DNA of 64,000 bases. Origin: Meghimatium bilineatum (taxonomy: Eukaryota > Mollusca > Gastropoda > Stylommatophora > Philomycidae). The stretch spans positions 63,325,353-63,389,352 of the forward strand of contig CM067316.1 of assembly GCA_034231615.1 (NCBI GenBank), in the 5' to 3' direction. Shown here one piece after another: positions 10,966 through 30,476 of this stretch. The notes beneath the pieces are model-generated. The model searched no databases, was not told the DNA's origin, and saw nothing but the letters and a program-made list of their open reading frames with translations. The number at the start of each line of letters is the position of its first letter. Position 1 is the first letter of the stretch. Both the position numbers and the translations under genes were made by a program.

Positions 10966-11120
10966 ATTGTAAAATGATCAGACACTGAAAAATGACTTTG
11001 AATCTGGCGATATCAGATATCTACATTCCATATGTATGTTTCGATTTTTGTGTGGTATTTAATAATTTAAAGTAACATCCCCTGTATTATATTAATGTTG
11101 TTTTCATTTCTTGTCTGCAG

Positions 11121-11165
11121 ATACCTTGTGTGTTTACAAATAAGAAGGGATATCATTAGTGGAAA
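11121..11165 (+). CDS. EPB41-like: 4.1 gene exon: F2 lobe
   Basis: 45 bp. Acceptor TTCTTGTCTGCAG, donor GGAAA|GTAAGT. Encodes YLVCLQIRRDIISGK, the Y-x-x-CLQ-R-x-DI-x-SG segment of the 4.1 FERM. It enters with the last base of an Arg codon and leaves AA| to make Lys with the next exon. Confidence 0.94.
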
Positions 11166-12120
11166 GTAAGTATAAACCAATTTGTTTGGCACTTACTGTT
11201 TTTTAAATATTGATTAATTTTATTTATCTACCTGTATCTGTTATCTTTTCTCTGCTTTTGCTGTCAGGATTTAATGTTTTTCGGTCTATGGAACGTTTGG
11301 TTGCTTGATATGCAGTAATATTGTGAAGTCTCAGAACTCTGGTAACTCCATCAAACCACCTTATTCTTGGTCAGTCTCTTGCTGTTTTATTGATTTTATA
11401 ATTCACTAGAATATGCTGAGCAATGAATGTTTTGTTCATTTTATTGTGGCAGTACATCTTCCAAATATGAAGAATTGTTTTATAAGAATCACCCATAATC
11501 TTTGTTTAGTGGGAAGTTGTTGTGTCACTGTAGTTTATCAACAATTAGGTCTTGCTAAAAAAATGTTAGTTTAATGTCCAGTGCCTCTATATTATATATG
11601 AATAAGGATTTGTTCCTCCAAACCTTACGATTGTGTGAATACTGTGGCCTTGACTTTTAGTTCAGGGTGCTCAGAATAGGGCATGAATGTTGAAGGATAT
11701 AGCTGACAACCTGTGAAATAATCATCATTGTCACTGCATGTCTTCAGGTTCTTACTTTAGTCTTCTGTCAAATGGTGCCCATGGATGAGAAGTAGGCCAG
11801 CAGACATTGCACCTTTGTTCTTTTGTGACAGACTCCTAGGTGGTGGAAAATGCTAGGAGTGTCATCACTGCAGATTTAGTCAACATGTCTGGCAGAAGAA
11901 GGATGAACTAGTTGGCCAAGACATATATGCTGCACTTCTTGCAAGACATGATGATCTTGGGATACTGCCAAACTGGAATACCGCCCTTCAGGGACTAAAC
12001 ATGCATCCATAAACCACCTTAACACATCCATTCCTTTGAGACAGCAAAAACTTATGTGATTTGAGTGTCACCTCGGTTACTCAATTGAGGGCCTATGCTT
12101 GTGTCAGAAAGGCTATGGGC
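11166..12120. other. Intron with a faint LINE remnant
   Basis: At about 11310-11400 the minus strand reads RPRIRWFDGVTRVLRLHN with errors, like a LINE tail (PRIRW-x-D-x-V). The rest of the stretch is unrecognised. Confidence 0.35.
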
Positions 12121-12328
12121 TGTTAAGAACTACCTGCTCACAGATTAAAGTGAATATTTCATCATCATCATGTGTTAAGAACTACCTGCTCACAGATTAA
12201 AGTGAATATTTCATCATCATCATGTGTTAAGAACTACCTGCTCACAGATTAAAGTGAATATTTCATCATCATCATGTGTTAAGAACTACCTGCTCACAGA
12301 TTAAAGTGAATATTTCATCATCATCATC
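12121..12328 (+). repeat. Minisatellite, 52 bp x 4, essentially identical copies
   Basis: Copies start at 12121, 12173, 12225 and 12277 with TGTTAAGAACTACCTGCTCA and end in ATTTCATCATCATCATG. I see no differences between the copies apart from the end of the last, so it is a young expansion or a possible assembly artefact. Confidence 0.95.
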
Positions 12329-13663
12329 TCCATAGATTTGAGTAAACTAAAGTAGGTCAGTTCTATTAAACAAGTCAAAGATAAATATTAGTTATCAACC
12401 AGCATCATAGCACATAGTTTCCTGTAAGTGCTCAACTGCCTAGTCAGTGGTTCACCAGAAACCACCTGACTAATGTCACCTACAGCATGTGCTCGGTAGC
12501 GATGATGCCATTCTTCAACCTTCCTAGGGTATGAACCCCTGTATTCTACTTCTTGGTGGCTGGGTGAATATAAATAAATAAAATGTCTGAGGTTGTCTGA
12601 CAAAATGGAGAGTGCCACAGAAATCAAATAAATAAGTGATAAATACTGAATCAAGTATGGAGGTTACTATAAAATTCTAAGTATCAATGTTAAAAATAAA
12701 TAATTATCAATAAAACAAAGAACAATGACAATTTTCCACGTTACAGTCTAACAGGGACCTTTCTCAAGAAACACATAACAATTTTTAAAAAACACAAAAA
12801 ATCATAAAAATATTTATAACTTGGACATGTTTTTCTCACTAAAAAACATTACCAAGTGAAGCCGCGCCATGTATGTCTAGCAAATGACAAATTACATACG
12901 TTCAATATGTAAACATATGTTAATACAATATTAATATGTTAATAAACTGGATGAACCACTGGAGTAATCTTTATTTCCAACGATGAATAACGAGTGAATT
13001 CAAAGCCCAGGTTTACTTATCAGTGGACGAATTACTGCATTACACTACAACTGCTCCCATAAAAATGGTATTTTCTTGGTCTTATTTCTTGATCCTCTTG
13101 TGCTTTCTTGTATTAGTTATTTTTTTATCCTTTTGTGCTTTCTTGAATTGGTTATTTCTTGATTCTCTTGTACTTTCTTGTATTGTAAAATAATTGTTTC
13201 AAACTCTAACCATGTTTATTGAACAAGACCACTGATTGCCCTAGTTAAGTCAAAGGGGGATTCAAGATTTCCCATTTGTGACAGGAGACTGAGGACAGCT
13301 GACATTGCACTCAGCCAGAATGATTATACCACTCACCATGTCACATTGTTACAAAGAATTCAGTCTGATATGGGGAAAGGAGAAGTGCATGATGGAGCAT
13401 TCAGAATGTAGCATAGAATCAGAATCCTTGAAAATATTCTGTGTGTATTTTGCACCTATGACTATAGAAGATTGTGAAAGTAGCACACTGTCTTCCTCAA
13501 CTAGTCTAGACTGTATTATTTACACATTCCCTGGATGTCTAGCTCGATTAGATCTAAGTCCTATAGCTTCTTTAGGATGGTGGGCACAGCAGCCCACCCA
13601 AATTTCATGCCAGTTTAAGTCTATTATACCCAGTACAACATGTCCAATTTCACTGTACTCAAT
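12329..13663. other. Intron, no gene; degenerate repeat near 13075-13190
   Basis: AT-rich intron. At about 13075-13190 TTATTTCTTGAT(C/T)CTCTTG with TGCTTTCTTGTATT repeats about three times (~37 bp). The open stretch 13305-13667 (+) shows no recognisable family or splice context. Confidence 0.45.
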
Positions 13664-13985
13664 CTAGACAAGAACTTCTCCCACCATGTCTGTCTGTTTC
13701 AATATATACCACTAACAAGCTAGACAAGAACTTCTCCCACCATGTCTGTCTGTTTCAATATATACCACTAACAAGCTAAACAAGAACTTCTCCCACCATG
13801 TCTGCCTGTTTCAATATATACCACTAACAAGCTAGACAAGAACTTCTCCCACCATGTCTGTCTGTTTCAATATATACCACTAACAAGCTAAACAAGAACT
13901 TCTCCCACCATGTCTGTCTGTTTCAATATATACCACTAACAAGCTAAACAAGAACTTCTCCCACCATGTCTGTCTGTTTCAGTAT
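13664..13985 (+). repeat. Minisatellite, 56 bp x ~6
   Basis: Copies start at 13664, 13720, 13776, 13832, 13888 and 13944. Each begins CTAGACAAGAACTTCTCCCA (or CTAAACAAG) and includes TGTCTGTCTGTTTC and AATATATACCACTAACAAG. An outlying partial copy is at about 14184-14230. Confidence 0.95.
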
Positions 13986-14287
13986 GTGATGCTGATAATG
14001 AAATAATTCGCAGTGACAGTGACTTTTTTTTTACAGGTGACAGGTTGTCAACCCATATCCAAGTTTTCCTTAGTTGCCTCCAACAACATTTTTGGAAAGA
14101 TGACAATTTCCCTATGCTTTTCACTCTGAACTAGAAATCCAGACTGCCTCATGGAAGAATTTCAGTGTTTATGACTACATTAATCTAGACAAGAACTCCC
14201 TCCATCATGTCCATATACTCGAAACACTGTATGTAGAAATCTGTCACAACTTTGGAAAATATTTTACAAACTGGCATGGACTGCTTA

Positions 14288-14452
14288 AGAGTACAACTTG
14301 TGGCTATGTTGTACAACTTGCGGCTCTGTTATACAACTTGTGGCTCTGTTGTACAACTTGTGGCTCTGTTGTACAACTTGTGGCTCTGTTGTACAACTTG
14401 TGGCTCTGGTGTACAACTTGTGGCTCTGGTGTACAACTTGTGGCTCTGGTTA
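14288..14452 (+). repeat. Minisatellite, 20 bp x ~8
   Basis: Unit GTACAACTTGTGGCTCTGTT, with TGGT variants toward the right. The apparent Cys-rich open stretches on both strands are by-products of the repeat. Confidence 0.95.
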
Positions 14453-14484
14453 GAAGAGGAAGACCATGTTTATCATCATCACGT

Positions 14485-15085
14485 GACATATTCTTTCCAG
14501 AATGTGGTCTTCCTTATGGATCTCTTGAATTCTCCGCGGTCTTGAACAAGTTGTCCCACTTTTGAATTCTCCGCGGTCTTGAACAAGTTGTCCCACTTTT
14601 GAATTCTCCGATTCTCCGCGGTCTTGAACAAGTTGTCCCACTTTTGAATTCTCTGCGGTCTAGTGACATGTGCAGACATCCTTGAATATCTTTTGTCCAA
14701 TGGCGTCTCGGGCGGCCTATGCCCATGTTGCCTTCTATCAACCCCTCCAGTAACACTCTCCATGCTGTTGTGTCTCTTAATGTGACCACAAAAAATAGCT
14801 TTTTCTTTAATATGGTTTTCAGAAGCCATCCTTCCTGGACGTTAATTGTTCTTAACACCTCCTGGTTTGTTTTCCTTGCTGTCCATGGTACTCTCAGAAC
14901 TCTTCTATAACACTTTCTGTAGTTATTCTCTTGACCACTGTTTTATTTAGTATCCATATGTCGCCACAGGAAACACACATGTTCGTAGTAAACACAACTT
15001 AGTTCTTATGTGAGCATCATGCAATAGTTTCTTTAGCTGTTTTAATGTTGACAGCGCCATTGCTGTTGTTCTCTTACTCTCTCTG
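14485..15085 (-). pseudogene. LINE 3' half tail with an internal minisatellite
   Basis: Minus strand, downwards from 15085: ALSTLKQLKKLL..., CVFPVATYGY (the YG-CETW region), INVQEGWLLKTILKKK, and G-R-P-R-R-H-W-T-K-D-I. It ends with the family terminus GGAAGACCACATTCTGGAAA followed by GAATATGTCA. Between 14527 and 14662 a 37-bp piece (GAATTCTCCGCGGTCTTG on +) is repeated about four times inside the tail. Other copies with the same end are at 43915-44212, 60870-61095 and 61725-62475. Confidence 0.8.
14527..14662 (+). repeat. Minisatellite, 37 bp x ~4, inside a LINE tail
   Basis: GAATTCTCCGCGGTCTTGAA with CAAGTTGTCCCACTTTT repeats at 14527, 14564 and about 14607 (one copy with an added TCTCCGATTC), and a last partial copy at 14644. 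It was derived from LINE sequence after insertion. Confidence 0.9.
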
Positions 15086-15106
15086 CATTGTTTATCATCA
15101 TCATCA

Positions 15107-16395
15107 TCAAGTGCCGTCTCCGCAACGAAGGTTGGCTGCAACGTATCTCCAACATCTCCTGTCTCTTGTCTTGGTGGTGCACTCTGCTAGGCTGTAAACT
15201 GTCCATCGTGTAATGTTACTCTCCCACGTGTATCTCTGCCTACCTCTTGCTCGCTTCCCTTTGACTTTACTCTCAAGTAAGGTCTTCAATAAGGTGTCAT
15301 GTCTTTTAATGTGTCCAAAGTATTTTATTTGCCTGATCTTTATTTCTCTTAGTAGTTCTTTCTTCATATTAAGTGTCTTTAGCACCTCTTTATTTGTTTT
15401 CTTCTCTTTCCATGATGTTCTCCCTATTCTTCTATATACCCACATCTCAAAGGCATCAATTTTGTCTTCTAATTGTTTATTTAGTGTCCATGTTTCTGAG
15501 TCATACATTAATATGGAATAGATGTAGCATTTTATAATTCTCATTTTTAACTTGTTTGTAATTAATTATTAATAATTTCCTCATGCCATTGAAGGTACTT
15601 TTAGCCATTCCTATTCTCCTTTTAACTTCTGTTTCACATCTGCCATCATTTGTGACTATGTGTCCAAGATATTGATACTGTTTTACTTGTTGTAGTTTCT
15701 CTCCCTGTATGTTTATGTTTATCTCCTGTTCTTCTGTGTCTTTGCTGATTATCATGGTTTTTGTTTTTTGAATGTTTATATCCAGTCCATATTCATTACT
15801 TGATTTATTGACTTGATCTAGTAGTCTTTGTAGTTCATGTTCACTTTCTGCTAAAAGAACAGTGTCATCTGCATATCTAATGTTGTTTATTATTTTCCCA
15901 TTGATCTTGAGTCCTGGTGTTTCTTCTATATTTTTAAAGATATTCTCTGTGTAGATATTAAATAGGCTTGGTGATAAAATGCATCCTTGTCTTACACCTC
16001 TTCTTATTTCTATGTATGGAGAGTAGCTGTTTTCACACCTTATTGATGCAGTTTGTTCCCAATATATATTTCTAATCAGCCTGATGTCTTTTCCATCTAT
16101 GCCTATTTCTTGAAGACATTTGATTAATTTTCCATGTTGGACTCTGTCAAAGGCCTTGCTGTAGTCTATGAAGCAAATATAGATACTTTTTTGGACTTCT
16201 ATATATTTATCTATCACTAGCCGGATACTCAGTATAGCTTCTCTAGTTCCTTTGTTTTTCCTAAAACCGAATTGTTCTTCACCGCCCTCCATGTCTATCT
16301 TGTTCTTAATTCTTTCATGTATTATCTTGAGAAGTATTTTAGTTAGATGGCTCATTAGACTTATTGTTCTATATTCTGTACAGTCCACAGCCCTT
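15107..16395 (-). pseudogene. RTE-like LINE: reverse transcriptase plus C-terminal tail, one frameshift
   Basis: Minus strand. Open from 16395 to 15501: YRTISLMSHLTKILLKI (start of the RT fingers), EEQFGFRK, motif A CFIDYSKAFDRV, motif B RGVRQGCILSPSLFN, and catalytic motif C RYADDTVLL near 15865. A frame change near 15540 leads to a second frame (15544-15107) with SETWTLNKQLEDKIDAFEMW, WVYRRIGRTSW, KYFGHIKRHD and GKRARGRQRYTWESNI. All RT catalytic motifs are visible. The endonuclease domain is absent (5' truncated). The 5' end is fused at 16396 to a scrap of a different LINE. Confidence 0.88.
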
Positions 16396-16480
16396 GCTGT
16401 GCCCCAGTGACCTGGGATCCACTGCAGTACTGTTTCTTTGGTGGTACTGCTGAGGTGTAGTAATATAAACAGCATTGTTT
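16396..16480 (-). pseudogene. Short RNase H-LINE scrap joined to the RTE-like copy
   Basis: Minus strand reads LHLSSTTKETVLQWIPGHWG, the same residues as in the RNase H LINE copies at 53639 and at the left edge. It is only ~85 bp long and continues in frame into the RTE-like RT, so it forms part of the 975-bp open stretch 15501-16475. Confidence 0.75.
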
Positions 16481-16720
16481 ATATTAGTTCCTAAATAATC
16501 AAAATATGTCACTTCTTCTAAATTGCAGTTCTCAATATTAATTTTGGGTCTTGATTTAGTTTTGTCAGTTGTCATATTTCTGTCTTTTTCATATTTAAGA
16601 ACAAGTTTTGCTGTTTACTAAATTTTTTGGTTTACCTAATTATGTTCAGTAGGTTGTGTTAGTTTGTTGCTAATAGCACTGTGTCGTCTGCATATCTAAT
16701 ACCATGTTTGTACTTACTAT
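16481..16720 (-). pseudogene. RT fragment of a third LINE
   Basis: Minus strand: G-I-R-Y-A-D-D-T-V-L-L-A-T-N near 16675-16720, then, after a damaged section, T-K-S-R-P-K-I-N-I-E-N and CNLEEVTYFDYLGTNIN, the normal sequence downstream of motif C. It is broken exactly where the 16480 junction begins, as if the composite at 15107-16480 landed in it. Confidence 0.7.
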
Positions 16721-16819
16721 AATAATAATATCTTATAATATTTATTTTCATATTTGTGTTACTACTGGCCACAACTGATAATCAGATCCTCTCTAGGTTC
16801 CTGGTAATTATATATTTAT

Positions 16820-17095
16820 ACTTTTGACAAATCATCTGGCATGGTTTCGATATGTATGCCATCATGATTCCTTGTCAAAAACAATACTACAGGGAAATGT
16901 CAAAGGTTGAAAAAGCAGAGAGGGCAAATAAAATTATGGAAAGACAATATCAAGGACTGGACAAGATTTTTCTTCACTCGTCCACATTGTTGAAGATAAA
17001 AATTGCTAGAGTACTCTGTGTGTTGATGCATCTAATATGGTACCCTTACGACCCTGATGGATTACGGGTTTATAGTATTAATAATATATTTATAC
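16820..17095 (+). pseudogene. LINE C-terminal tail, decayed
   Basis: Plus strand with several stops: W-F-R-Y-V, H-D-S-L-S-K-T-I-L-Q-G-N, then ...K-T-I-S-R-T-G and M-V-P-L-R-P near 17040. This is the RHDSLSKTILQG...GRQRK tail of RTE-like LINEs. The open stretch 16852-17112 is a shadow of it, not an exon. Confidence 0.65.
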
Positions 17096-17235
17096 TCAAT
17101 ATAAACTTCTAGTTTTTTTGATACAGTTCAGTATTATCTCAGTTTTGTTTCTTTGCTGTCTCTTGTTTGTTTTAAATTGATATTTTATAATTACTCTCTG
17201 ATACTAACTGTGTTCATTGTGATTTTTCTTCTTAG

Positions 17236-17415
17236 ACTTCCTTGCTCTCAGGCCACACATGCCATGTTAGGTTCTTACGCAGTTCAGGCAGACATAGGAG
17301 ACTACGACCCGATTGATCATGGTACCGGCATAGATTATATTCGGGACATGCCGTTTGCTCCAGAACAGACAGATGATTTGTTGTATAAAATTGCAGCCCT
17401 TCATAAACAGCACAA
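17236..17415 (+). CDS. EPB41-like: 4.1 gene exon: F2 lobe core
   Basis: 180 bp, the largest FERM exon here. Acceptor TTTTTCTTCTTAG, donor CACAA|GTAAGA. Encodes LPCSQATHAMLGSYAVQADI, then G-D-Y-D-P, YIRDMPFAPEQTDDLLYKIA and LHKQHK. LPCS-x-x-T-x-x-LLGSY-x-VQ-x-x-GDYDP is diagnostic for 4.1-type FERM domains. A Gly-Thr-Gly insertion (DHGTGIDYI) is two to three residues longer than the vertebrate form as I recall it. Confidence 0.96.
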
Positions 17416-17621
17416 GTAAGAGGAGTGTTCGAATTTGTCATACTGAAGCTAATGTTTTATTATTCCTGTGTAAATGTGTCATTAATGTATAAACAAATCT
17501 GATAGAAGCATGATAAGATGGTTTGCCCAGAAGTGTGTGTGATGTTTTTAGTGTTTTGCGCTGTAGTTTTTCTAGTTAATACTTGCATTGTGTGTTTACT
17601 AATTTCTGAATATTTCTGCAG

Positions 17622-17709
17622 AGGTCAGACACCAGAGCAAGCAGAACTACATTATCTGGAATACAGCAAGAAGATAGCACTTTATGGTGTTGACCTTCAT
17701 AGGGCAAAG
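17622..17709 (+). CDS. EPB41-like: 4.1 gene exon: end of F2 lobe
   Basis: 88 bp. Acceptor TTTCTGCAG, donor AAAG|GTTAGA (weak at +4 to +6). Encodes [20 protein letters not shown] then YGVDLHRAK. The TP-x-x-AE-x-x-(Y/F)LE-x-x-KK-x-x-x-YGVDLH-x-AK pattern is standard. Ends in phase 0. The downstream intron contains the large decoy-acceptor array. Confidence 0.95.
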
Positions 17710-17984
17710 GTTAGACTAACTTAATCATTGTCTGTGTAGTGTATTTGTGACCTTTTGGAAAATGTGTTTATTTAATTACGTATGTTTTACTTGGAGACAA
17801 CAGTAATTACATCAGTATCAGGTGGCATGCCATCCATCATAGGAAGTTATGTCCAAGTCTAGTTGTTCTTGGTTTATGATAATACACTTTTTAACATAAT
17901 TATTACTTTATTTCTCTTTCTTTCTTACCATGTTTCTCGGTTTGTGAAGGAAAATATAAGCATCTTATTTCTTTCTACCACAAA

Positions 17985-18250
17985 GGCAGGTGATGCTCCC
18001 TCCACACCACAATGGTTGGTGACTTTCCCTCCATACCACAATGGTTGGTGACTTTCCCTCCACATCAAAATGGTTGGTGACTTTACCTCCACATCAAAAT
18101 GGTTGGTGACTTTCCCTCCACACCACAAAGGCTGGTGATGCTCCCTCCACAAAACATAACTGGTGACGCTCCTTCCTACCTCAAAGGTTGCTGACGCTCC
18201 GTCCACACCACAATGACTGGTGATGCTTCCTCCATTCCACAAAAGCTGGA
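17985..18250 (+). repeat. Minisatellite, ~31 bp x ~8-9
   Basis: Unit like CTCCCTCCACACCACAATGG followed by TTGGTGACTTT, diverging to GCTGGTGATGCTCC toward the right. Confidence 0.9.
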
Positions 18251-18634
18251 GAAGCTTCAATGTCAGTGGACGGATTGTTTTTGTTTGGGTATTCTATCAA
18301 TAGATAAATTGCTTTCCCGGGCTAGTGTTCTCATTCAGTTCCTCTTCTGCCAAGTTTGGCACATGGGACGAAAACTAGTGTTCTACTGATAGGTAAATTG
18401 GCTTCCTAGGCTAGTGGTCTGCCTATGCTTGACCTCCACCACAACCGAACCATCTGCTGTCGGATTCCCAGTTTCCACTTTTCATTTCTGTATCTACACC
18501 ATGGAGAGCCTGGAGGATGGCCCACTGGTTGACAATCTCCTCTGACTAGCTGTGGATGGTGTGTGTATGACAGCTGTTTAGTGGGCTCTGTTGGCCTCGT
18601 TAGTCATCCCTCTTGCATCAATATATTAAATGCC
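18251..18634. other. Intron; part of a dispersed repeat
   Basis: No gene. The segment GTGTGTATGACAGCTGTTTA (about 18573-18592) recurs inverted near 48950 (CCACTAAAGCTGTCATACAC), and CTTGACCTCCAC is also shared with that region. An unclassified dispersed repeat. Confidence 0.4.
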
Positions 18635-18838
18635 CGTGTGTTGCCATGGCCCAAAATAAGTATAAAGAATAGCAACACTGTTTATCTTTCATGCATGTTG
18701 TAAGAGGTGACTAAGAAAGTTTTGGGAGTGGCACATATATCATAGATAAGCTGTAAACCATAATACAATGCATTCCATTCAATGGACTACATCCTGCTAA
18801 TCTACAGAAGTTTGAGAATGAACGAAAGAGAAGAAAAT
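18635..18838 (+). mobile_element. SINE family B, internally deleted
   Basis: Plus-strand copy from GTGTTGCCATGGCCC through AAGAATAGCAACACTG, TGTTGTAAGAGGTGACTAAG and CTACATCCTGCTAATCTACA to GAATGAACGAAAGAGAAGAA. The middle (TCAGTGACCC / GGCCGAAAGG section) is missing. Confidence 0.8.
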
Positions 18839-19099
18839 ATTAAAAATTTCTGGATGTATTGACATCAAGAGGTTCAGCGATGGTCAACTCTGGCAATCAT
18901 GTTGTTAGAAAAAAGTGAAACCACACCGCCTTGATGACTTTTCTCAAACAAATTACAAACCCCCCTTTCCCCCCTACTTCCATATTCTGTGGGCTTGTTG
19001 TTAATGATAAGGGGCTGTCCATAACTCAAGCCATTATTTACCAATTTTAAACCCTCCCCCCCCCCCTCCTTTCTGCATAATGTGCCTGGAAAAAAATTA

Positions 19100-19370
19100 A
19101 CTTCTTCTTTCCTTCCACTTTTACCCTTTACGTGTGTCGAGAGAGATACAATGTTCTTGTTCTCACTTTTCTGGCAGCTTCAGATAATGTTATTTGGTGT
19201 TTGTGTAATGTCTCTTTGATGTTGTCGATCCAGCGTACTTTAGGTCTACCCTTGGCTCTTCTTTCTTCTTCTTCTCTCTTTGTATATGCTTTATAAACTA
19301 ATGAATCACACAGCATTCTTTCCAGATGACCAAACCATTGTATCTGTTGGTAAATTAACTTCACCACCTA
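19100..19370 (-). pseudogene. LINE C-terminal tail
   Basis: Minus strand 19367-19128 is open: IYQQIQWFGHLERM, then R-A-K-G-R-P-K-V-R-W-I-D-N-I and a SEAARKVRTRTLYLSRHT end. This is the QI-x-WFGH-x-x-R...GRP-x-x-RW-x-D-x-I LINE tail. A related copy is at 54780-55150 (-). Confidence 0.75.
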
Positions 19371-19706
19371 AAAAATGTTTGTTGCAGATAAAGCAAAAGA
19401 AAATCTGCAGATTTTTTGGCAGATTTTTCTATAAATATTTCAAACAGATCTAACTGTTGTATTTAAAAAAAAATTCTTTTGATGTCAACTATTGTTAAAC
19501 TTTTCCTTGTCAAACTTTTCCAGGAACACCCCCCCCCCCCATTTCTTGAGGTAATTTTATGGACTATTCCTAATAGATATCACTAAAAGACTGTTTTTCA
19601 GGGACATTCCCCCCCCCCCCTTCTCAACATTAAAGAACTACTGTATTTTTCCATGGTTCTCATTATAATATTTTTAAAAAAGATGAATATATATGATGAT
19701 ATGTCT

Positions 19707-20243
19707 AATATGTATGTGGTATTGTTTATATGTAGGATTCTGGCTAATATTTGGTATTGTTTATATGTAGGATTCTGACTAATATTTGGTATTGTTTTAT
19801 ATGTAGGATTCTGACTAATATTTGGTATTGTTTATATGTAGGATTCTGACTAATATTTGGTATTGTTTTATATGTAGGATTCTGACTAATATTTGGTATT
19901 GTTTATATGTAGGATTCTGACTAATATTTGGTATTGTTTTATATGTAGGATTCTGACTAATATTTGGTATTGTTTATATGTAGGATTCTGACTAATATTT
20001 GGTATTGTTTTATATGTAGGATTCTGACTAATATTTGGTATTGTTTATATGTAGGATTCTGACTAATATTTGGTATTGTTTTATATGTAGGATTCTGACT
20101 AATATTTGGTATTGTTTATATGTAGGATTCTGACTAATATTTGGTATTGTTTTATATGTAGGATTCTGACTAATATTTGGTATTGTTTTATATGTAGGAT
20201 TCTGACTAATATTTGGTATTGTTTATATGTAGGATTCTGACTA
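19707..20243 (+). repeat. Acceptor-derived minisatellite (35/36 bp x 14 plus authentic site)
   Basis: Fourteen copies of TGTAG|GATTCTGACTAATATT (the first has GATTCTGGCTAAT) precede the real acceptor TGTAG|GATTCTGACTATG at 20233. Exon-like starts run from 19736 at alternating 35- and 36-bp spacing (seven of each, total 497 bp). Each unit carries a branch-point-like CTAAT about 25 nt before the next TGTAG. Since the preceding exon ends in phase 0, every decoy reads D-S-D-stop (first copy D-S-G-stop). Confidence 0.95.
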
Positions 20244-20385
20244 TGTGGATATCCTGCTCGGCGTTGGTGCTACAGGAATATCCGTGTACAGAGATAATCT
20301 GAGAATCAACAGATTTGTGTGGCCTAAAATTCTCAAGATTTCCTACAGGAGAAATAAATTCCTTTTAAGAATTCGTCCTGCTGAG
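20233..20385 (+). CDS. EPB41-like: 4.1 gene exon: F3 (PH-like) lobe, first half
   Basis: 153 bp, 51 codons, phase 0 at both ends. Donor CTGAG|GTATGT. Encodes [20 protein letters not shown], then [19 protein letters not shown] and RIRPAE. LR-I-NRF-x-WPK-(I/V)LKISY-(K/R)R-N-x-F is the strongest signature of the family's F3 lobe. The first 11 bases of this exon form part of the unit amplified upstream. Confidence 0.97.
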
Positions 20386-20475
20386 GTATGTTGAATGAAA
20401 TATTGGATGTTTTCATGTATTAATTTGTGGGGTCAAATGTTCTATGACAGCAGTTATGCAAGCCAGGGAGTTGCT

Positions 20476-20600
20476 AGTGTGGCGTATAGCCAAAAGGTTA
20501 GAGTTTTGGACTCACACCCATGAGGTCCTGAGTTCGATCCCTGATAAGGACTGGGTTTTTTTCTGTCGGAGTGTACATTGAAAAATCCACCCTGAACATG
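20476..20600 (+). mobile_element. tRNA-derived SINE head
   Basis: TGTGGCGTATAGCCAAAAGG (A-box region) and GAGTTCGATCCCTG (perfect B box), spaced as in a tRNA, followed by ACTGGGTTTTTTTCTGTCGG. Same family as 4640-4745. Confidence 0.75.
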
Positions 20601-20629
20601 ACATGGAATTGGTCTGTTCTCAGTGACTT

Positions 20630-20835
20630 GAGTACATAGGTTGAAAGTCTTGAAAAGATTGTACCTTTTTTTGGAGGATGTAGTTGGTCAAGTGCGGAAA
20701 ACCTGTTTACCTGAGTTGTGAGGCGATTCGGTTTCGCTAGAACGAACCTGGTTCAAATCCGATCATCCTTAAGAATTTTTTTATTTATCCTAATGCTTCC
20801 TACTTGAATTTCTTTGTATAAACTAATGGAGAAAA
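20630..20835 (+). repeat. Dispersed tRNA-like repeat
   Basis: Contains GAACCTGGTTCAAATCCGAT (B-box-like), then TTATTTATCCTAATGCTTCC. The reverse complement lies at 3305-3400, and the preceding GAGTACATAGGTTGAAAGTC part also matches 3590-3670. Confidence 0.55.
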
Positions 20836-21057
20836 AAGAAGCTTACAGAAATTTTTGTGTTGATCTTTCTAAAATAGTCCCAAAAAAAAAATGTTGTCAG
20901 TTTTTGTTTATTTGGAAAGTGATAAATATTTGTGAAGAAAGGAATGTGAAGTTGTATGAAGGCACATATTTACCAACATAGTCACTTTGATTGGTTGGCA
21001 CACAAAAAAATAATAATGGAGTGCCACATTGGAGACATCAGCGCTAAATAGACATAT

Positions 21058-21222
21058 TCTGCGCTCGTTCTCAAACTCCTGCAAATTAACAGGATGTTGT
21101 CTGGACAATGGAATGCATTGTATCATGATTTACAGCTTTGCTGCTATATCTTCATCTTTCGGCCTGACAAATTCAATTTCAGCATGACTTCTGGGTCACT
21201 TTGACCCTTAATGAGATGGAAA
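21058..21222 (-). mobile_element. SINE family B, 3' half
   Basis: On + it reads CTCGTTCTCAAACTCCTGCA, then GGATGTTGTCTGGACAATGG and CTTTCGGCCTGACAAATTC, ending in TCACTTTGACCCTTAATGAG. The head is absent. Confidence 0.75.
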
Positions 21223-21607
21223 TCTTGCATCACATGAATCTATAATCTGTGAATAGAGGATGACCATGGAGGATATACTGAAGTTGCTTTGTGAACGCCC
21301 GCCAGATGTGGTGGACAGTGTAATAAATGACAATTCGATATGAAGAATTTGGTGTTACAAGTGAGGAATGAGAAATTTTGGGTAAGGAGAGAAGCGTGTT
21401 TAATCAGAGGGTCACAGAGACTATCAGCGTGCACACCCAGCAGTCTCTGCTGGGAGCGACTGAGCACCTGTGGGTTTGTCTGGAGGACAAGTAAGGCAGT
21501 TCATAATCAATAACTAATTTGTATGAGTGCTTGTGTGAAACTGAAAGTAAAAACAACAGGTTTTCTTTATTACTTCTCTCCTAATATTGAAAGAATGATA
21601 TCTACCA

Positions 21608-21765
21608 AAGACAGATTTCTTGGGCCATAGGTGCAAATAAAATTGCAACACAATGCATTTCCATTCTCTGGACTACATTCTGCTGGAAATCTAGTAGGAT
21701 CATTGTCCTGCTGCAAGAGAAATCCGTGGGAGTTTGAGAATTAACGCTGAATAAGAAGAAACAAT
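21608..21765 (+). mobile_element. SINE family A
   Basis: Plus strand from GACAGATTTCTTGGGCCATA through CTACATTCTGCTGGAAATCT to GAGTTTGAGAATTAACGCTG and AATAAGAAGAA. Confidence 0.8.
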
Positions 21766-21897
21766 AGCATAGAGAACTACAACAGTGGTCACAATATTAT
21801 GTAAGTAATGCTTCTAATGGAGAAAGAAAAACTTGGCCTAATGAAGTCAATCCTTTACATCTGTATACAGTGACATCTCTACAAGGAGGAGCTAAAG

Positions 21898-22045
21898 ATT
21901 TTCTTCAGCATTTATTCTCAGACTATATCTCTGGATCTCTCTCATAGCAGGACAATGGTCCAACTAGATTTACAGCAGGATGTAGTCCAGAGAACAGAAA
22001 TGCATTATGTCGTTGTTTTATTTTCTCCGTTGGCCTGACACATCT
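21898..22045 (-). mobile_element. SINE family A
   Basis: On + it begins TTCTTCAGCATTTATTCTCA and ends with CCGTTGGCCTGACACATCTG plus TCTTCAG. Full family length, diverged. Confidence 0.78.
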
Positions 22046-22383
22046 GTCTTCAGTAGTGGGGAAAAAAATCAAAGAACCATTTTCCAGGTCAGAACATGAC
22101 ATTAATTACCATCTGAACAGAATATCCAACTCACCGAGCTAACTAAGAATTGCATCAATACTTGAACTGCCTCAAGCTAGGCAGGAAGTTCTCCCACCAT
22201 GTTCATCTATCCAAATCACATTGTATGTAAATCTATCCCAACTACAGAAAACATTCAGATTTTATAGACTAGCATGTGATGCCTAAGAGTGAATACTTGC
22301 AACAGGATAGAAGAAAACAAGATATGATGTATTTGAAGATATGTGATCATTTATAGTTTTAATTTGTTTGTTCTGTCCTACAG

Positions 22384-22481
22384 TTTGAGACATTTGAAAG
22401 TTGGATTGCTTTTCGTCTACCAAATAACAAAATGGCCAAACGTTTGTGGAAAATTGCAGTGGAACATCATGCTTTTTTAAG
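22384..22481 (+). CDS. EPB41-like: 4.1 gene exon: F3 lobe, second half
   Basis: 98 bp. Acceptor TTCTGTCCTACAG, donor TTTTTTAAG|GTAAGA. Encodes FETFESWIAFRLPNNKMAKR then LWKIAVEHHAFLR. F-E-x-x-x-x-F-(K/R)-L-x-N-x-x-x-AK-(R/K)-LWK-x-x-VEHH-x-F-(F/L)-R is the conserved terminal helix of the FERM. It leaves AG|, completed as Arg at 27652. The donor and last exon bases are duplicated twice downstream. Confidence 0.96.
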
Positions 22482-22640
22482 GTAAGATAATATAATAATT
22501 AAATCATACCCGGTATAGAACATTGCTTTTTTAAGGTAAGATAATATAATAATTAAATCATACCCGGTATAGAACATTGCTTTTTTAAGGTAAGATAATA
22601 TAATAATTAAATCATACCCGGTATAGAACATTGCTTTTCA
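22470..22640 (+). repeat. Donor-derived tandem repeat, 54 bp x 3
   Basis: TTGCTTTTTTAAG|GTAAGATA occurs at the real donor (exon end 22481) and at exon-like ends 22535 and 22589, each followed by AATAATTAAATCATACCCGG. A fourth, truncated copy (AACATTGCTTTTCAGC) ends the array. The unit includes the last ~12 bases of the exon. Since the reading frame across the real donor is TTA-AGG-TAA, either downstream donor would add an immediate stop. Confidence 0.95.
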
Positions 22641-22680
22641 GCTTTTGTTGAATGATTAAGTGCCACTAATACATCCAACA

Positions 22681-22880
22681 CCACATTGCTAGTACAATAT
22701 GAATACCACATTGCTAGTACAATATGAATACCACATTGCTAGTACAATATGAATACCACATTGCTAGTACAATATGAATACCACATTGCTAGTACAATAT
22801 GAATACCACATTGCTAGTACAATATGAATACCACATTGCTAGTACAATATGAATACCACATTGCTAGTACAATATGAATG
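22681..22880 (+). repeat. Minisatellite, 25 bp x 8
   Basis: Unit CCACATTGCTAGTACAATAT followed by GAATA, eight near-perfect copies immediately after the donor array. Confidence 0.95.
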
Positions 22881-23089
22881 ATTTATCTGCTTGTTGAACT
22901 ACTGAAAGTTCAATATAGTTGTTTGTGAGACTAGGTCACTAATTTATCTACCACAGAATCTGACTTTTTTCCAAACTACTTACTTTATTTTGCTACAGAA
23001 TAGTTTAAATAATTTGTTTGCCGTAGTGGTGCAGTGCTGATGAAGGTCCTGAGTTCAGGTCATCTCTGTGTTGTTGTTTTTTTTGGGGG

Positions 23090-23242
23090 GGGGGAAATTT
23101 TTCTCAAACTCCCACCTTCTTTCTCATATAGCAGGATAATGGTGATAAATATTTACAGCAGAATAAGTAGTCCAGATAACAGAAGTGTGTTGTGTCACGG
23201 TTTAATTTGTGCCAATTGTCTGACACATCTGATTTTGGCTGG
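23090..23242 (-). mobile_element. SINE family A, diverged
   Basis: On + it runs from TTTTTCTCAAACTCCCACCT to TTGTCTGACACATCTGATTT. It has the family order, including GTGTTGTGTCACGGTTTAAT. A tRNA-like scrap (TGCCGTAGTGGTGCAGTG, GTCCTGAGTTCAGG) at 23020-23060 precedes it. Confidence 0.7.
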
Positions 23243-23559
23243 ATGACTCATTTTCTTGTAATAGTCCACTCACCTTGCTTGATTATTGTCTATCGAAGGC
23301 ACATAAAATTCAAATGAGCCCTGCTATTGCTTATAACTAAACATGATTGCACCTTTTTCTTCGAATACAATGAGATGTGACTGTAATGCCATCTCATTGT
23401 ATTCTTCTATTTGTTTATTTCTAGTTCATTTTTCTTTCTTGATGAAGATCCCAATTGGATCATAATGTGGAAAAAGTCATCGATTCTTTGTTTTTTGTTA
23501 TTTCTCACTGACGTTACATTTGGTATTTTTTGCTATTTATTACTTGTGTTAGTCACCAG

Positions 23560-23810
23560 TGAAAATAATTATTGGAACACATCAAAAGACAACAGATTAA
23601 GTGGTTTTCACATGCTTCCAGACTACCAACAGATAGTATGCCACAAATGGCCATGACACATAGACATAACGGCTATAAAGCCAGAGGCAGACCATGTAAA
23701 AGATGGATCACAGAAATCAAAGAAGCCACAGGAACAAGCTTACAAACAGCACACATGAAGGCCATCTCCAGAAAACTCTTCCGCCCCTGACTCTGCAAAG
23801 CAAACTAGAG
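23560..23810 (+). pseudogene. LINE C-terminal tail
   Basis: Plus strand 23572-23790 is open: HIKRQQIKWFSHASRLP, then G-Y-K-A-R-G-R-P-C-K-R-W-I-T-E-I-K and a final ISRKLFRP. It matches the QI-x-WFGH-x-x-R...GRP-x-x-RW-x-x-x-I tail of LINE ORF2 proteins. Confidence 0.75.
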
Positions 23811-23950
23811 CCACAGCGTTTATATAGATAGACAATAATACTTTATTATAATTGTTATCACTTCTTATTTTTATTACTGCAGCACTCTCCACCTTGTTGG
23901 ATATCCTCTGACAGTTTCATTATTATTAGCTACATAGTTACATGCTCTGA

Positions 23951-24332
23951 ACAATATTCTTGACTGACATCTTTATACAATATTCTTGACTGACATCTTT
24001 ATACAATATTCTTGACTAACATCTTTATACAATATTCTTGACTGACATCTTTATACAATTTTCTTGACTGACATCTTTATACAATATTCTTGACTGACAT
24101 CTTTATATAATATTCTTGACTGACATCTTTATACAATATTCTTGACTAACATCTTTATACAATTTTCTTGACTGACATCTTTATACAATATTCTTGACTA
24201 ACATCTTTATACAATATTCTTGACTGACATCTTTATACAATATTCTTGACTGACATCTTTATACAATATTCTTGACTGACATCTTTATACAATATTCTTG
24301 ACTGACATCTCTATACAATATTCTTGACTGAC
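23951..24332 (+). repeat. Minisatellite, 26 bp x ~14.6
   Basis: Unit ACAATATTCTTGACTGACAT followed by CTTTAT. Scattered single-base variants (GACTAACAT, ACAATTTTC) run through the array. Confidence 0.95.
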
Positions 24333-24606
24333 AGTTTGCTGCTGTCTTGAAATCAACAGAGTAGATATGGAAAAAACTCGAGCACAATGAAGTCAATCAG
24401 TTGAGCCTGTGAGGAATTACAAAATCCTCTTTGAAGTAAAGGAACTGGACAGCACTTGGTGGTGTACCTACTACAATTTAATCAATCTTCTGGAATATGG
24501 AAGAGAGCTCCAAAAGTATATGCTCTAATGTCTGACACCAGAAAAAAAAGTAGCAGACTTGTATTCATCTGCTAATAAAATTCCTCTTATTTATTATTTT
24601 TTCTGC

Positions 24607-24770
24607 AGAAGACGGATGTGTCGGGCCATTGGCACAAATAAAATGGCGACACAACGCATTTTCATTCTCTGGAATACATCCTGTAGGAAATCTAGTAGCA
24701 AATCTAGTCCTGCTACAAGGAAAATCCAGTGGGAGTTTGAGAACGAACGCTGAAGAAGAAGAAGACATTA
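24607..24770 (+). mobile_element. SINE family A, well preserved
   Basis: Plus strand from GAAGACGGATGTGTCGGGCC through GCGACACAACGCATTTTC and CATCCTGTAGGAAATCTAGT to GAGTTTGAGAACGAACGCTG and AAGAAGAAGAAG. ATTATTTT on both sides (24593-24600 and 24768-24775) may be a short TSD. An internal extra piece AGCAAATCTAGT is a local duplication. Confidence 0.85.
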
Positions 24771-24807
24771 TTTTTAACTTGTGGTCATCAGACCACATTT
24801 CTAATAG

Positions 24808-25195
24808 CTTCAAAAAACTGTGTGATCTTTTACAGTCCTTCCCCATAGATCATACAAAAAACTGTGTGATCTTTTACAGTCCTTCCATAGATCATACAAA
24901 AAACTGTGTGATCTTTTACAGTCCTTCCATAGATCATACAAAAAACTGTGTGATCTTTTACAGTCCATCCATAGATCATACAAAAAACTGTGTGATCTTT
25001 TACAGTCCTTCCATAGATCATACAAAAAACTGTGATCTTTTACAGTCCTTCCATAGATCATACAAAAAACTATGTGATCTTTTACAGTCCTTCCATAGAT
25101 CATACAAAAATCTGTGTGATCTTTACAGTCCTTCCATAGATCATACAAAAAACTGTGTGATCTTTTACAGTCCTTCCATAGATCATACAAAATTG
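24808..25195 (+). repeat. Minisatellite, ~42 bp x ~9
   Basis: Unit TGTGTGATCTTTTACAGTCC followed by TTCCATAGATCATACAAAAA and AC. Because 42 is divisible by 3 the array stays open on both strands (24629-25243 + and 24810-25190 -), giving false 14-residue protein repeats. Each unit also holds TCTTTTACAG, which resembles an acceptor. Confidence 0.93.
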
Positions 25196-25837
25196 ATCAT
25201 CTTTATATGCTATATTTTGTTTGTTTATTTAAGCGGCATCTGAGAAGGATGTGTTCTTCTGCAGTCAATTGTTAAACATCAAGTTCAATATTGGTCATGT
25301 ATAGACTGCATACCTGTCAATCAGTTCAGACTAAAAAGTGTATGATAACTTCAAATCGAAGATATGTCTCCTGCAAGTTTACACACAAAAATTGTGTTCA
25401 AAAAAAAAAGGTCTTCCGAGCGAAAAATTGCTGGGTGGGGGATTGTGTTTGCCTACCTTTTTTGGGCTAATTAGTCAAAATAGTAGTCTAATATTTTGTG
25501 TGTTTGTCTACCTTCAATAGTAGTCTAATATTTTTTGTGTTTGTCTACCTTCAATAGTAGTCTACTCAAATTCATGTTCTGCTTTGCTAAGGGGAAAGGG
25601 CATTGGCATCCCCCTCCTATCAGCAGCCTTGTCGGGGCATGCCATTGGGCTTAGAAAGTTTTTTGTTTTTTTAACTTTATTATTACATGTTTGTGGAATA
25701 TTTCCATGTTGTCTTTGGAAGATTTATGACTGAGCAGGTTTACCACTTGTTGCTCAGTGTTTGTCAGGATTTACATTGACCCCCCCATCTTTTTCTGCAG
25801 CAGCTTTTCTGTACCTCCATCTACTCTATGCCATAGT
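25196..25837. other. Intron; 37-bp repeat x ~2.5 at 25479-25563
   Basis: ATAGTAGTCTAATATTTT followed by a TGTGTTTGTCTACCTTCA piece is repeated about two and a half times. Nothing else recognised; no coding signal. Confidence 0.5.
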
Positions 25838-26005
25838 TAGTTAGTTAGTTGTCAGATCATCATCACTGCAAACTGGACGCGTCCATAGTTGCTCTATTCT
25901 CTCCTTGAGCGTATCCACCTTTAAACACTTCTGCTGACAGTACCGGTCTTCTGTTGGTTGACCATCATTCTTCTGCGCCCTCCAAAATGTTTCCTTTTAG
26001 CAACA
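25838..26005 (+). repeat. Dispersed repeat D, copy 1
   Basis: From TAGTTAGTTAGTTGTCAGAT through ACGCGTCCATAGTTGCTC, CTTCTGCTGACAGTACCGGT and TGCGCCCTCCAAAATGTT to AGCAACACCAC. The same ~170 bp is at 49350-49530 with about 80-85% identity by eye. The family is unclassified. Confidence 0.75.
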
Positions 26006-26744
26006 CCACATTACAAACCCTGATCTTTAATCCTGGCCATTGAAAAAGAATCATCATCCACAGTTCAAAATGTCATTGCCGGATAGTCCTGTACCACAAT
26101 CGTGCATGACACCAGTTGATATGCTCTTTCATTGCTTCGAACACCCTCGAATAAAGCATCATGCTTTATTTACTGCATATAGAAATATTAGATATGTGAT
26201 GAAATATACATTATCTTATATTAGGTCCAGCTCTATACCATAGGAATTATTATTAAAGTATTATGTATAGCAGCATAGGCCTAAACCTAAATTTTGGATT
26301 TAGGCTATACATATTTTATTATTTAACTTAAGGCCTACAGTACCTGCGAGGCAAACTAAAACTTACAATATAAATGACATATAGGCCTACACACAGATAC
26401 ATGTACTTACATTGTCAATGCACGTGAATAAAAAAATTCCTGAGTTTGGTATAAAGGAAAATTAACAATCACAGGGAATAATGAAAGTATAAAGAAATAA
26501 TGTGTTTAAAAGCATGTATTTAGTGTTGCCACTAAAATAAATGTTAAAACCTGCAAACGCCACTGTTGTCAAAAAAATAAATAAAAACGGCACAAATCAC
26601 TGTTGCCAATAAAATATATAAATACCATAAAAATCAATGTTGCTACTAAAAATAAATAAAACCAAAGAAAATCAGTGTCACCATTAAATTGAGTAAAAAA
26701 CCAAAAAATGCACAGAATTACAGAAATTCACACAAAAAAACATA
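26006..26744. other. Intron, AT-rich, nothing recognised
   Basis: Contains loose repeats of AATGTTGCCACTAAAATAAA type (26520-26690, about four degenerate ~60-bp units). No coding signal. Confidence 0.45.
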
Positions 26745-27150
26745 AAATGTATTCTTCTTCTGCATTCAGCATCTGTGGTCATGCTATACCGCCACGCCTG
26801 TCGTCAAGACGAAGTCCACTGTCTTCTCCAGGTCAGAGCGGCTGCCCCATAGCTTTTGCCTCAAGTCTGTATCCTCTGGCCAGGTCTGCTGTCTGCTCAT
26901 AAAATGTATTGTATGGGCATACAGAGTCAAACCTTGCAAAAACCATACAGAATATAGCTAATTACAGGTATTTGACAACTATGAGAGCGGTTTGGTTTTA
27001 GGTCATTGTGGGTTTCCCATAACTTGCTTTGCAGAGAAGCTCCTGTGGGCCAGATTGTTGTTCTGTGAACAATGAAACTGGGACAATTCTGTAATATGTG
27101 TTCTGGTGTCTGTGCTGCAGCTCCGCAAATGCAAGCCATATAGTCACTGG
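26745..27150 (-). pseudogene. Two truncated RNase H-LINE C-terminal ends in tandem
   Basis: Minus strand. 27139-26927 reads CICGAAAQTPEHILQNCPSF then HRTTIWPTGASLQSKLW, the CxCG-x-x-x-QT-x-EH-x-LQ-x-C zinc-binding-like end of these LINEs. 26900-26750 is a separate copy reading QTWPEDTDLRQKLWG in another frame, which finishes in a GATGCTGAATGCAGAAGAAG 3' end. That end resembles the SINE tails. Confidence 0.75.
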
Positions 27151-27651
27151 ATGCGTTCTATTGTTTCTGGACTCATGTCAAAATGTATCAACACTTGTAG
27201 TCTTTGAATAACATCTGAAAATGGCAAAAACATTTTTATAGCAAGAGCTGAATAATATACTAACAATGTTCCCTCTAATCTTCTTCATATGTGAGCAAAG
27301 CTGAATTTGTCTGAGTGGTGAATATTTCCATGTGGGTATCTGCTACCTAAATGTTTCAAAATGGCCTTTCACTAGTACTTTATGTTTGTAGGTGGTACAT
27401 TGGTGAGTGGTACCTTCTAGTGACATGCACAGCTTCGCACTGGGCACTTAAAAGGAAGCATTTATTATATGTGTGTTTAAGTGTATACCACCTGGCATAG
27501 AGATGAAAGAGTGAAATTTCGCAACCCTGGAGATCAGGTAAGTACCTGGTAAGTGTAATTGTATTTGTGGTCAGTTATTAGTTTAAATGTATTTGTGGTC
27601 AGTTAGCAATAACTATTCTCTAACTATTTATAAATATTTCTGTTTCAAAAG
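27151..27651. other. Intron, nothing recognised
   Basis: Unremarkable AT-rich intron up to the FA exon. The acceptor that follows (TTTCTGTTTCAAAAG) has purines next to the AG and is weak. Confidence 0.45.
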
Positions 27652-27854
27652 ACTGAGGTCATCAGATGATGCCAAGAAGAGGACAGGACTTCCCAGATTT
27701 GGTTCAAAGTACCGCTACTCAGGGAGAACCTTATATCAGACTCGGCTTAATGCATCAATGGCAGATCGTCCCTCGAAGCACTTTGAAAGGACCCATAGTC
27801 GGCAATCACTAAATTCAGTTTTAAATAACAACCGATCCAGAAGTCTGGACAATT
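27652..27854 (+). CDS. EPB41-like: 4.1 gene exon: FERM-adjacent (FA) domain
   Basis: 203 bp. Acceptor TTTCAAAAG (poor), donor AATT|GTGAGT. Encodes RLRSSDDAKKRTGLPRFGSK, then YRYSGRTLYQTR, ADRPSKHFERTHSRQS and RSRSLDN. GSK-(F/Y)-RYSGRT-x-x-QTR, the RP-x-x-x-FER block and RSLD identify FA, the segment that in vertebrate 4.1 proteins holds regulatory Ser/Thr. FA with RSLD argues for the 4.1R/G/N/B/Coracle branch over other FERM proteins. Ends with one base (T) of a split codon. Confidence 0.95.
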
Positions 27855-28039
27855 GTGAGTATTTAGGATAAAAATAACTGCTGGTTTGCCTTTTTTGCAG
27901 ATCCTCTTCTTCAGGTGACATATTCTTTCCAGAACATAGTATTTTTTATAGATCTGGCATATCAAAAGATAAAATGTTATGTTTTTCATTGATTGCAAGT
28001 AATGATACCCATTTGTTACATCCACTTTTTAAATTCAGT

Positions 28040-28320
28040 TAGAGTTATGTCCTTGATTATGAGTTTATATATGACCAATAAGCCCTATTCTGGTCACAAA
28101 TGTCCTTGAACAGTTTAGGCATGGGATGACCATTGTGGGTGTTTTTTGGTCTACCCGTAACTTTCCAGCTATTCTCCGCTGTTGAGCTGCTGCATTTCTC
28201 CTCTTTTCACAAGTTTCTGCACCTTTTTTTACCATAGAGCGCCATGTAGCTCTATTTCGTGTAACATCTTCCCATGTATCTTGATTTATTTCAAATGCTT
28301 TCAGTGAGGTCAAAAGATAT
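28040..28320 (-). pseudogene. LINE C-terminal tail with C2H2-like end
   Basis: Minus strand open 28313-28065: TSLKAFEINQDTWEDVTRNR, A-T-W-R-S-M-V, A-E-T-C-E-K-R-R, and finally CLNCSRTFVTRIGLIGHI. SLKAF-x-I-x-x-x-TWE-x-x-A-x-(D/N)-R-x-x-WR and the terminal C-x-x-C...RIGL-x-x-H are the standard end of a LINE family that recurs here. A scrap of another LINE end (GACATATTCTTTCCAGAACA) lies at 27917-27937. Confidence 0.8.
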
Positions 28321-28339
28321 CAATTAACCTTCACCAAGC

Positions 28340-28919
28340 CTATATCAATCCTGGCCGCCGAGAAACAAAATGGCGGCGCAAGCTTTTGGCGGCCCGACCC
28401 ACCCAGCGAGAATATCGTGAGATTTACACGTACCACAGTCCGTGCACATAGCTGGGGACATGCGCAATCGAAGCCGGTACATCCCCCACTTCCGAAATGA
28501 TCGTTTTTGAGAATGGCTAGCTATTCGTAAAAGTTTAAGAGCAATTAATCTGACCACATCTGCACACCGGTACGATGCAATGATGGTGGATCAGTTTTAT
28601 AGACCTTTATTTCATCGTATTTCGAATAAAATAACATTGAATCGTGGCTTGAATCATGAATTATTAGGTTATTTAGTTTCACAGCAGTGAATATACAGAA
28701 TGCCGTGTTGGTTTGGGGACTTGTACGTTTGATATTGAATATTTTGAAGTGGCAGAAAAAAAACTCTAGGCCTAAGCTCAAAAAACGATTTTACAGCAAA
28801 TCTACAAGTTTTATACAGTTCCCCCGGCTATATTTTGATAATTTCGCAGTGAAAGAACATAAATACAACAGATTTGCGTGATTTAGTTTACAGTGTTGCC
28901 AAGGAATTCGATATGTAAG
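28340..28919 (+). promoter_or_regulatory. CpG-rich candidate promoter and non-coding first exon
   Basis: Between 28350 and 28510 CpG density jumps against an AT-rich background (CTGGCCGCCGAG, GGCGGCGCAAGC, CATGCGCAATCGAAGCCGG). AAAATGGCGGC at 28367-28377 fits the YY1 consensus, and TGCGCAATC is NRF1-like. The ATG at 28370 opens only a 16-codon frame. A perfect donor AAG|GTAAGT follows at 28919/28920. An alternative promoter driving a first exon that splices to 30657 or 34294 is plausible but unproven; a decayed CpG-rich repeat is the alternative. Confidence 0.4.
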
Positions 28920-29429
28920 GTAAGTTATTTATTTACTTATTTTTTTCCTCTTTATTTGTTATAAAATATATGTTTTTTGTGAAAAACGTCTTTACCACTT
29001 TCTCATATGTCTGGTATCACACACACACACACACACGTACATAAATTACACCAATATATGCATAATTCAATTCTTTATTTATATGTGCAAATATTATTTA
29101 AATATCTCTAACAACCAAAAAATTATCACATTTTCAAAACAGTCACCATCAATAACGCAAATTTTCAAAAAAGAATCCAGTGGCAGGGAGACGTTTTGTA
29201 TTTTTTAATCTGGCTTGCTAAAGGTTTTAAGACAAGCTTGCAACAGAACTAGATAAAATAAACACAGACACAATTTGTAGCAGCATAGTTTATATCATAT
29301 GTCATCTGATATCAATCAGAGTTTTAAATGGTGCATTTATAATTTATCAAAATTTATTTTGTTTTGTTATTTTCTGCTGTAATTTTTACTAAAAAAGTTG
29401 GTAGCATATCTAATTCAAGTGGAGCAATC
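28920..29429. other. Intron; (CA)n microsatellite
   Basis: A (CA)~9 run lies at about 29017-29035. The rest is AT-rich with no recognised feature. Confidence 0.6.
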
Positions 29430-29765: not shown

Positions 29766-29979
29766 ATTATCACTAAGAGATACATAAATTATCAACCAAC
29801 CCTGTCCACATAGTCCTACCGTCTATAATTCTCTCCAAAACTCTGACTGTTCTGTTTCCTGTTCTTCCGATATGTGCCTCAATATTACTTTTTCAGATTT
29901 TCCTACCTGCCAATTTGTTTTATAGACTGGAGATGCCATGATAATGTGAGATTACCAGGATTTTGTGTTTGTAATTTTT

Positions 29980-30475: not shown

Positions 30476-30476
30476 T

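Follow-up and report, generated by a model that had tools for sequence, protein, structure and literature searches.

A minisatellite repeating the acceptor of a band 4.1-type FERM exon in the gastropod Meghimatium bilineatum: a probable mirage

Tandem repeats that span intron-exon boundaries have been described in amphioxus under the name of mirages, where they involve acceptors as well as donors (PMC3087553). The genes concerned are globin and Adh genes, to which troponin C and PGBD5 have been added (PMC3087553, PMC3902484), and the units vary in size and number: those of 150-160 bp occur 6 and 3 times in the two BflGb6 haplotypes, and those of Adh3 measure 10-72 bp (PMC3087553). RT-PCR in amphioxus suggests that regular splicing is undisturbed, with possible cryptic use allowed for by the authors, who also proposed such boundary arrays as raw material for new introns (PMC3087553). 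In humans, several splice donors come from the minisatellite of IFI6 (6-16) (Turri et al. 1995, via PMC4526556), and tandem repeats at exon-intron boundaries, described together with segmental duplications, may form new introns and often go along with alternative transcripts (PMC2812944). Among the matches listed in the open-licence PMC literature, "mirage" in the boundary-array sense was found in two lancelet papers only, and no gastropod boundary minisatellite was recognised; an earthworm paper (PMC12783039) and PMC3039753 mention minisatellites, with no repeated boundary in the excerpts covered.

Here, we describe an array that repeats an acceptor together with the beginning of its exon in a 64,000-nucleotide stretch of the genome of Meghimatium bilineatum (GCA_034231615.1, contig CM067316.1, positions 63,325,353 to 63,389,352 of the forward strand), referred to as the window throughout.

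The host gene and its exons

The array lies in a band 4.1-type FERM gene for the cytoskeletal protein 4.1, whose exons were placed by tblastn with six homologues from among the nine best matches as queries. Upon joining through the acceptor at 20233, the 12 exons placed yield a single frame of 563 residues with one final stop and consistent phases. The small exon at 5846-5888 was placed on weak tblastn matches (E 0.005-0.08) together with the frame, and the first coding exon or exons of the gene were not found by tblastn within the window. Matches of the joined exons are to band 4.1-type FERM domains, the best being Band 4.1-like protein 3 (E 1.8e-52), and the Pfam domains FERM_M and FERM_C are present. 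Eight of the best nine among the 120 homologues listed belong to species that we take to be heterobranch gastropods. A tree of 15 proteins puts the window protein inside the heterobranch set (98/99), where it is joined to those of the land snails Bradybaena and Candidula with 86/87, which is not a firm value. The features around the array are listed below, numbered from the first letter of the window.

3752..35550, + strand: band 4.1-type FERM gene, 12 exons placed; open frame of 1692 nt, ending REMFM-stop
17622..17709, + strand: exon preceding the array, final part of FERM F2 (...YGVDLHRAK); phase 0 end, donor GTTAGA
17710..20232, + strand: array-bearing intron, 2523 nt; 96 AG dinucleotides, counting the 14 decoys and that of the true site
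19705..19735, + strand: left edge, diverged intronic copy CTAATATGTATGTGGTATTGTTTATATGTAG ahead of the first decoy
19713..20243, + strand: minisatellite of 35/36-bp units (71-bp dimers), holding 14 decoys, the true acceptor and the 11 bases that open the exon
19736, 19771, 19807, 19842, 19878, 19913, 19949, + strand: exon-like starts of the first seven decoys
19984, 20020, 20055, 20091, 20126, 20162, 20198, + strand: exon-like starts of the last seven decoys; true start at 20233
20233..20385, + strand: true exon, start of the F3 lobe (...RPAE); both ends in phase 0; FERM_M and FERM_C

The exon ahead of the array had been predicted to end in phase 0, and the frame of the joined exons bears this out. 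The true exon measures 153 nt, has its donor at 20386 and is flanked by introns of 2523 and 1998 nt. Across the junction of the two exons, the residues AKDSDYVDI are found in ten of 14 relatives hand-picked from the 120 homologues listed, AKDSEGVDI is found in three, and the pattern has no match in Haliotis. Since AKDSDYVDI is coded in ten of these 14 relatives, the exon part is old and the array copies derived. Judged from this comparison, the exon bases of the array are old coding sequence, and copying ran from the exon into the intron, not the other way round.

Two other features of the gene were observed. Five C-runs of 6-12 lie at 18960-19620, upstream of the array within the same intron (17710..20232). 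In addition, a PPKAEK coding repeat (35362-35507) starts precisely where the last exon has its acceptor, and the C-terminal tails of the relatives are related, lysine/proline-rich and of varying length.

Array structure, in-frame stops and the duplication joint

The motif TGTAG/GATTCTG (the slash marks the splice boundary) occurs 15 times in the window, namely at the 14 decoys and at the true site. The decoys read GATTCTGACTAAT in 13 of 14 cases and GATTCTGGCTAAT in the first copy, compared to GATTCTGACTATG at the true exon; all of the first 11 exon bases are present in 13 of the 14 decoys, and 10 of the 11 in the first. TRF reports the array at 19713-20243 with a period of 71, 7.5 copies, 98% matches and a score of 1025, the highest among the 56 TRF rows in the window, which places it far beyond chance. 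Motif positions and TRF thus confirm that the acceptor at 20233 and the first 11 exon bases were amplified 14 times as a 35/36-bp array. The spacing of the copies alternates between 35 and 36 and departs from this alternation once (36, 36 ahead of the final 35); the proposed growth as 71-bp dimers therefore fits most of the unit pattern, but not this one break.

The branch-like motif, tract and AG are retained in every unit of the array. Units 2-14 are identical apart from one added T in the 36-bp form, and the first unit has diverged, carrying CTAATATGTATGTGG upstream where the other copies have CTAATATTTGG. The original prediction had assigned a layout of CTAAT, U-rich stretch, TGTAG and exon-like bases to each copy, which holds except for this upstream part of the first. 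CTAAT has its second A 24 or 25 nt upstream of the exon-like start, or 28 nt upstream in the first copy.

Translating all 14 decoys gives D-S-D-stop, with D-S-G-stop in the first, exactly as expected from phase 0, and supports the view that use of a decoy would truncate the protein. The decoy exons would measure 188-650 nt, compared to 153 nt for the true one. Moreover, the stop codon TAA was confirmed to be the TAA of the CTAAT branch-like motif. At the joint of the array, exonic ...GACTA meets intronic CTAAT... with CTA shared. This joint is seen directly, and the coincidence of stop and branch site follows from the position of the duplication breakpoint. If units are built from random intron tails of this gene plus the 11 exon bases, 46% of them have an in-frame stop inside a single 35-nt unit. 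The exon continues with TATGTGG, and this 7-base match with the first intronic copy CTAATATGTATGTGG, which is seen directly in the sequence, may have seeded the slip.

GT dinucleotides are present in each unit, including TTG/GTATTG, and pairing of a decoy acceptor with a donor from the array itself would in principle yield a small, stop-bearing cassette exon. These GTs, however, appear to be weak donors by the GTRAGT consensus, and we regard such a cassette poison exon as extremely improbable.

Arrays elsewhere in the gene and the window

Two further boundary arrays accompany the array at 20233 within this gene; one sits at a donor, the other at a different acceptor.

22384..22481, + strand: next FERM exon (FETFESWIAFRLP...EHHAFLR)
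22470..22638, + strand: second boundary array, donor side; 54-bp unit, 3.1 copies, 100% matching
33853..34301, + strand: third boundary array, degenerate, with four acceptor-like copies upstream of exon 34294-34604 and its true acceptor

The donor-side array repeats the exon end together with the donor AAG/GTAAGAT and so presents three identical donors, with the decoy donors beginning at 22536 and 22590; read-through of the true donor of exon 22384-22481 leads to an immediate stop (FLR-stop). The exon-like starts of the degenerate array (33878, 33915, 33964 and 34257) show 24-28 matches out of 35, and the array is interrupted by ~260 bp that do not belong to it. Scanning the window with a 33-base consensus for this acceptor family gave six sites with at least 22 matches, five of them in the 33853..34301 region and the sixth, with a bare 22 matches, at 62313; no site with at least 22 matches was found on the opposite strand of the window.

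Tandem arrays are dense in this region. After merging, the window holds 33 arrays covering 9.4% of its bases, and the gene region holds 25 covering 16.6%. Several of them, among others those at 12121-12327, 22680-22879 and 31538-31732, have 100% matching units in TRF, which suggests very recent growth or strong homogenisation. When the gene's own arrays were placed randomly, 3.35 boundaries were expected to be straddled, with at least 5-6 bases on either side, compared to 2 of 23 observed (P(>=2) 0.83). Boundaries with repeat copies nearby number 3 of 23 (2 of 12 acceptors and 1 of 11 donors), and a repeat copy within 1.5 kb is thus found at 13% of boundaries as against 17% of random gene positions (258 of 1500), with a match threshold of 24 of 35 that was chosen after the degenerate array had been noticed. 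Both chance tests concern one gene and ignore selection against arrays inside exons; over its 23 boundaries, neither straddling nor nearby repeats gave a sign that arrays target splice sites.

The number of arrays also bears on whether the copy number was inflated or otherwise altered during assembly, which would be compatible with any of the other readings. Near-identical units are hard to assemble, and one amphioxus mirage was apparently misassembled in the draft, according to the authors (PMC3087553). The present array, by contrast, measures 531 bp and has non-repeat flanks, and with 33 merged arrays in the window, arrays as such are unlikely to stem from one local error. We assign a very low probability to such an alteration.

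The original prediction had raised the idea of a splicing governor or poison-exon device. Under selection as a governor, the number of decoys would tune the share of productive transcripts, as might be read from the identical in-frame stop in every decoy and from the branch-like motif, tract and AG kept in each unit; in C. elegans, an intronic minisatellite is enriched beside exons with multiple splicing decisions (PMC4039745). The near-identity of the units, however, can be explained by recent homogenisation without selection, and a stop would arise by chance in about 46% of cases. Because further boundary arrays exist at a donor and another acceptor of the same gene, arrays are dense, boundary hits stay at chance level (2 of 23 versus 3.35) and the odds of a stop are near even, the device finds no support, and we judge a selected governor to be very unlikely. 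A copy-number rheostat, in which every additional 35/36-bp unit would bring in one more stop-bearing acceptor of equal strength and the length of the array would set the share of protein 4.1 mRNA that is decayed, is quite unlikely as well. If it did operate, heritable or somatic changes in length would tune the dosage of protein 4.1, and the donor array of the next exon would add a second setting.

Elsewhere in the window, long open frames were observed at 435-1412 (-), 15501-16478 (-) and 53722-54555 (+), which we presume to resemble pieces of non-LTR retroelements. ARAGORN found no tRNA gene. We also considered an RNA structure specific to the array. Its folding gave a z of -3.8 with 0 of 100 shuffles as good, and with 25 shuffles a z of -4.7 on the + strand and of +4.1 on the - strand; eight other arrays, hand-picked from the 32 others in the window, range from -10.5 to +6.9. 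As several other arrays also fold better than shuffles while others fold worse, this candidate was rejected.

Choice among fifteen acceptors and relation to known systems

With 15 acceptors competing within 500 nt, the locus is a natural experiment on 3' splice-site choice, and an unusually clean one. The acceptors are alike or nearly alike in branch-like motif, tract, AG and 11 exon bases, so that position and downstream exon content are left to decide. In a crude acceptor matrix, built from 11 sites and therefore too small to rank sites and poor in discrimination, one decoy scores below the true site, six score equal and seven above (decoys -1.7, -1.0 and 0.3; true site -1.0), and ten other AGs of the intron outscore the decoys and the true site alike.

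Exon definition prefers the sites nearest across the exon (Carranza et al., PMC9225289). The same study reports that competing 3' sites lean overall to the upstream site, and that this lean is significantly reduced, although in the excerpt covered it is not said to be reversed, for equal-strength sites with long flanking introns (PMC9225289). Some use of the decoys is plausible given this upstream lean. The alternative transcripts reported for human boundary repeats (PMC2812944) likewise count against a tolerated array. In its strongest form, this would make the array an accident that is leaky and mildly harmful: a sizeable share of transcripts would be spliced to decoys and lost to nonsense-mediated decay (NMD), and the length of the array would lower the output of protein 4.1 without being selected for doing so. 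Decoys and true site indeed agree in 10-11 exon bases and in almost all of the upstream unit, 13 of 14 decoys score no lower in the crude matrix, and upstream 3' sites are favoured overall (PMC9225289). Amphioxus mirages, however, are reported without disturbed regular splicing in the text covered (PMC3087553, PMC3902484), and the upstream lean is weaker between long introns (PMC9225289) such as the two that flank this exon. We consider substantial leakage unlikely, albeit with an appreciable chance of being right.

Our preferred explanation, which we hold to be probable, is that the array is a young, non-adaptive mirage, i.e., a boundary-spanning tandem duplication that is tolerated and does not serve as a device. 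A short slip would have joined exonic GACTA to intronic CTAAT via the shared CTA, yielding a 35-bp unit with a branch-like site, U-rich tract, TGTAG and 11 exon bases. This unit would then have expanded mainly as 71-bp dimers, the unit pattern being visible in the array and the order of events reconstructed from it. As the decoys are nearly indistinguishable locally from the true site, downstream exon content would mostly have to decide, and the choice would rest mostly on sequence beyond exon base 11, namely the rest of the exon with its own signals and the donor that follows it (20386). Exon definition between long introns (2523 and 1998 nt) would favour the AG nearest the exon body, at 20233. 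mRNA spliced to a decoy would stop after three codons and would presumably be removed by NMD, and with decoy products lost to decay, the array could be tolerated, possibly at the cost of some transcript. We thus infer that 20233 is mainly used, with some use of decoys being plausible. Tolerance through a favoured last AG, the other option in the original prediction, would explain the array better than the governor or poison-exon reading, preferential use of that AG being predicted.

Of the six features of mirages, four can be read from a single DNA sequence, and all four are found in the array: tandem, minisatellite-like units; a unit that spans the boundary and carries a splice signal; an authentic copy at the exon that is required by the frame; and homogenised inner units with a diverged edge. 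The other two concern undisturbed splicing in cDNA and variation in copy number between haplotypes or cells. By structure, we therefore file it as a putative mirage. Boundary minisatellites, which as mirages are reported only in lancelets among the literature covered, would thereby be extended to gastropods, and the locus suggests that mirages can arise wherever tandem arrays are dense, with no special lancelet process needed.

Poison exons and other forms of alternative splicing coupled to NMD bring in a premature stop when used. The premature stop is common to both, but the array consists of alternative acceptors and is not a cassette exon. With IFI6 it has in common that minisatellite units bear a splice site; the units of IFI6 are donors used in real transcripts, whereas those of the snail are predicted acceptors. 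Like the human repeats in segmental duplications, it is a minisatellite at an exon-intron boundary; changes in gene structure and new introns are a feature of the human repeats (PMC2812944), the snail array being known from DNA alone. From amphioxus mirages it differs in its heterobranch gastropod host, its band 4.1 gene and its 14 decoys of 35/36 bp, as described here at the level of DNA. Like them, it belongs to a set of boundary-spanning tandem units with acceptor and donor versions, its authentic copy adjoins the exon, and its inner units are homogenised while its edge has diverged.
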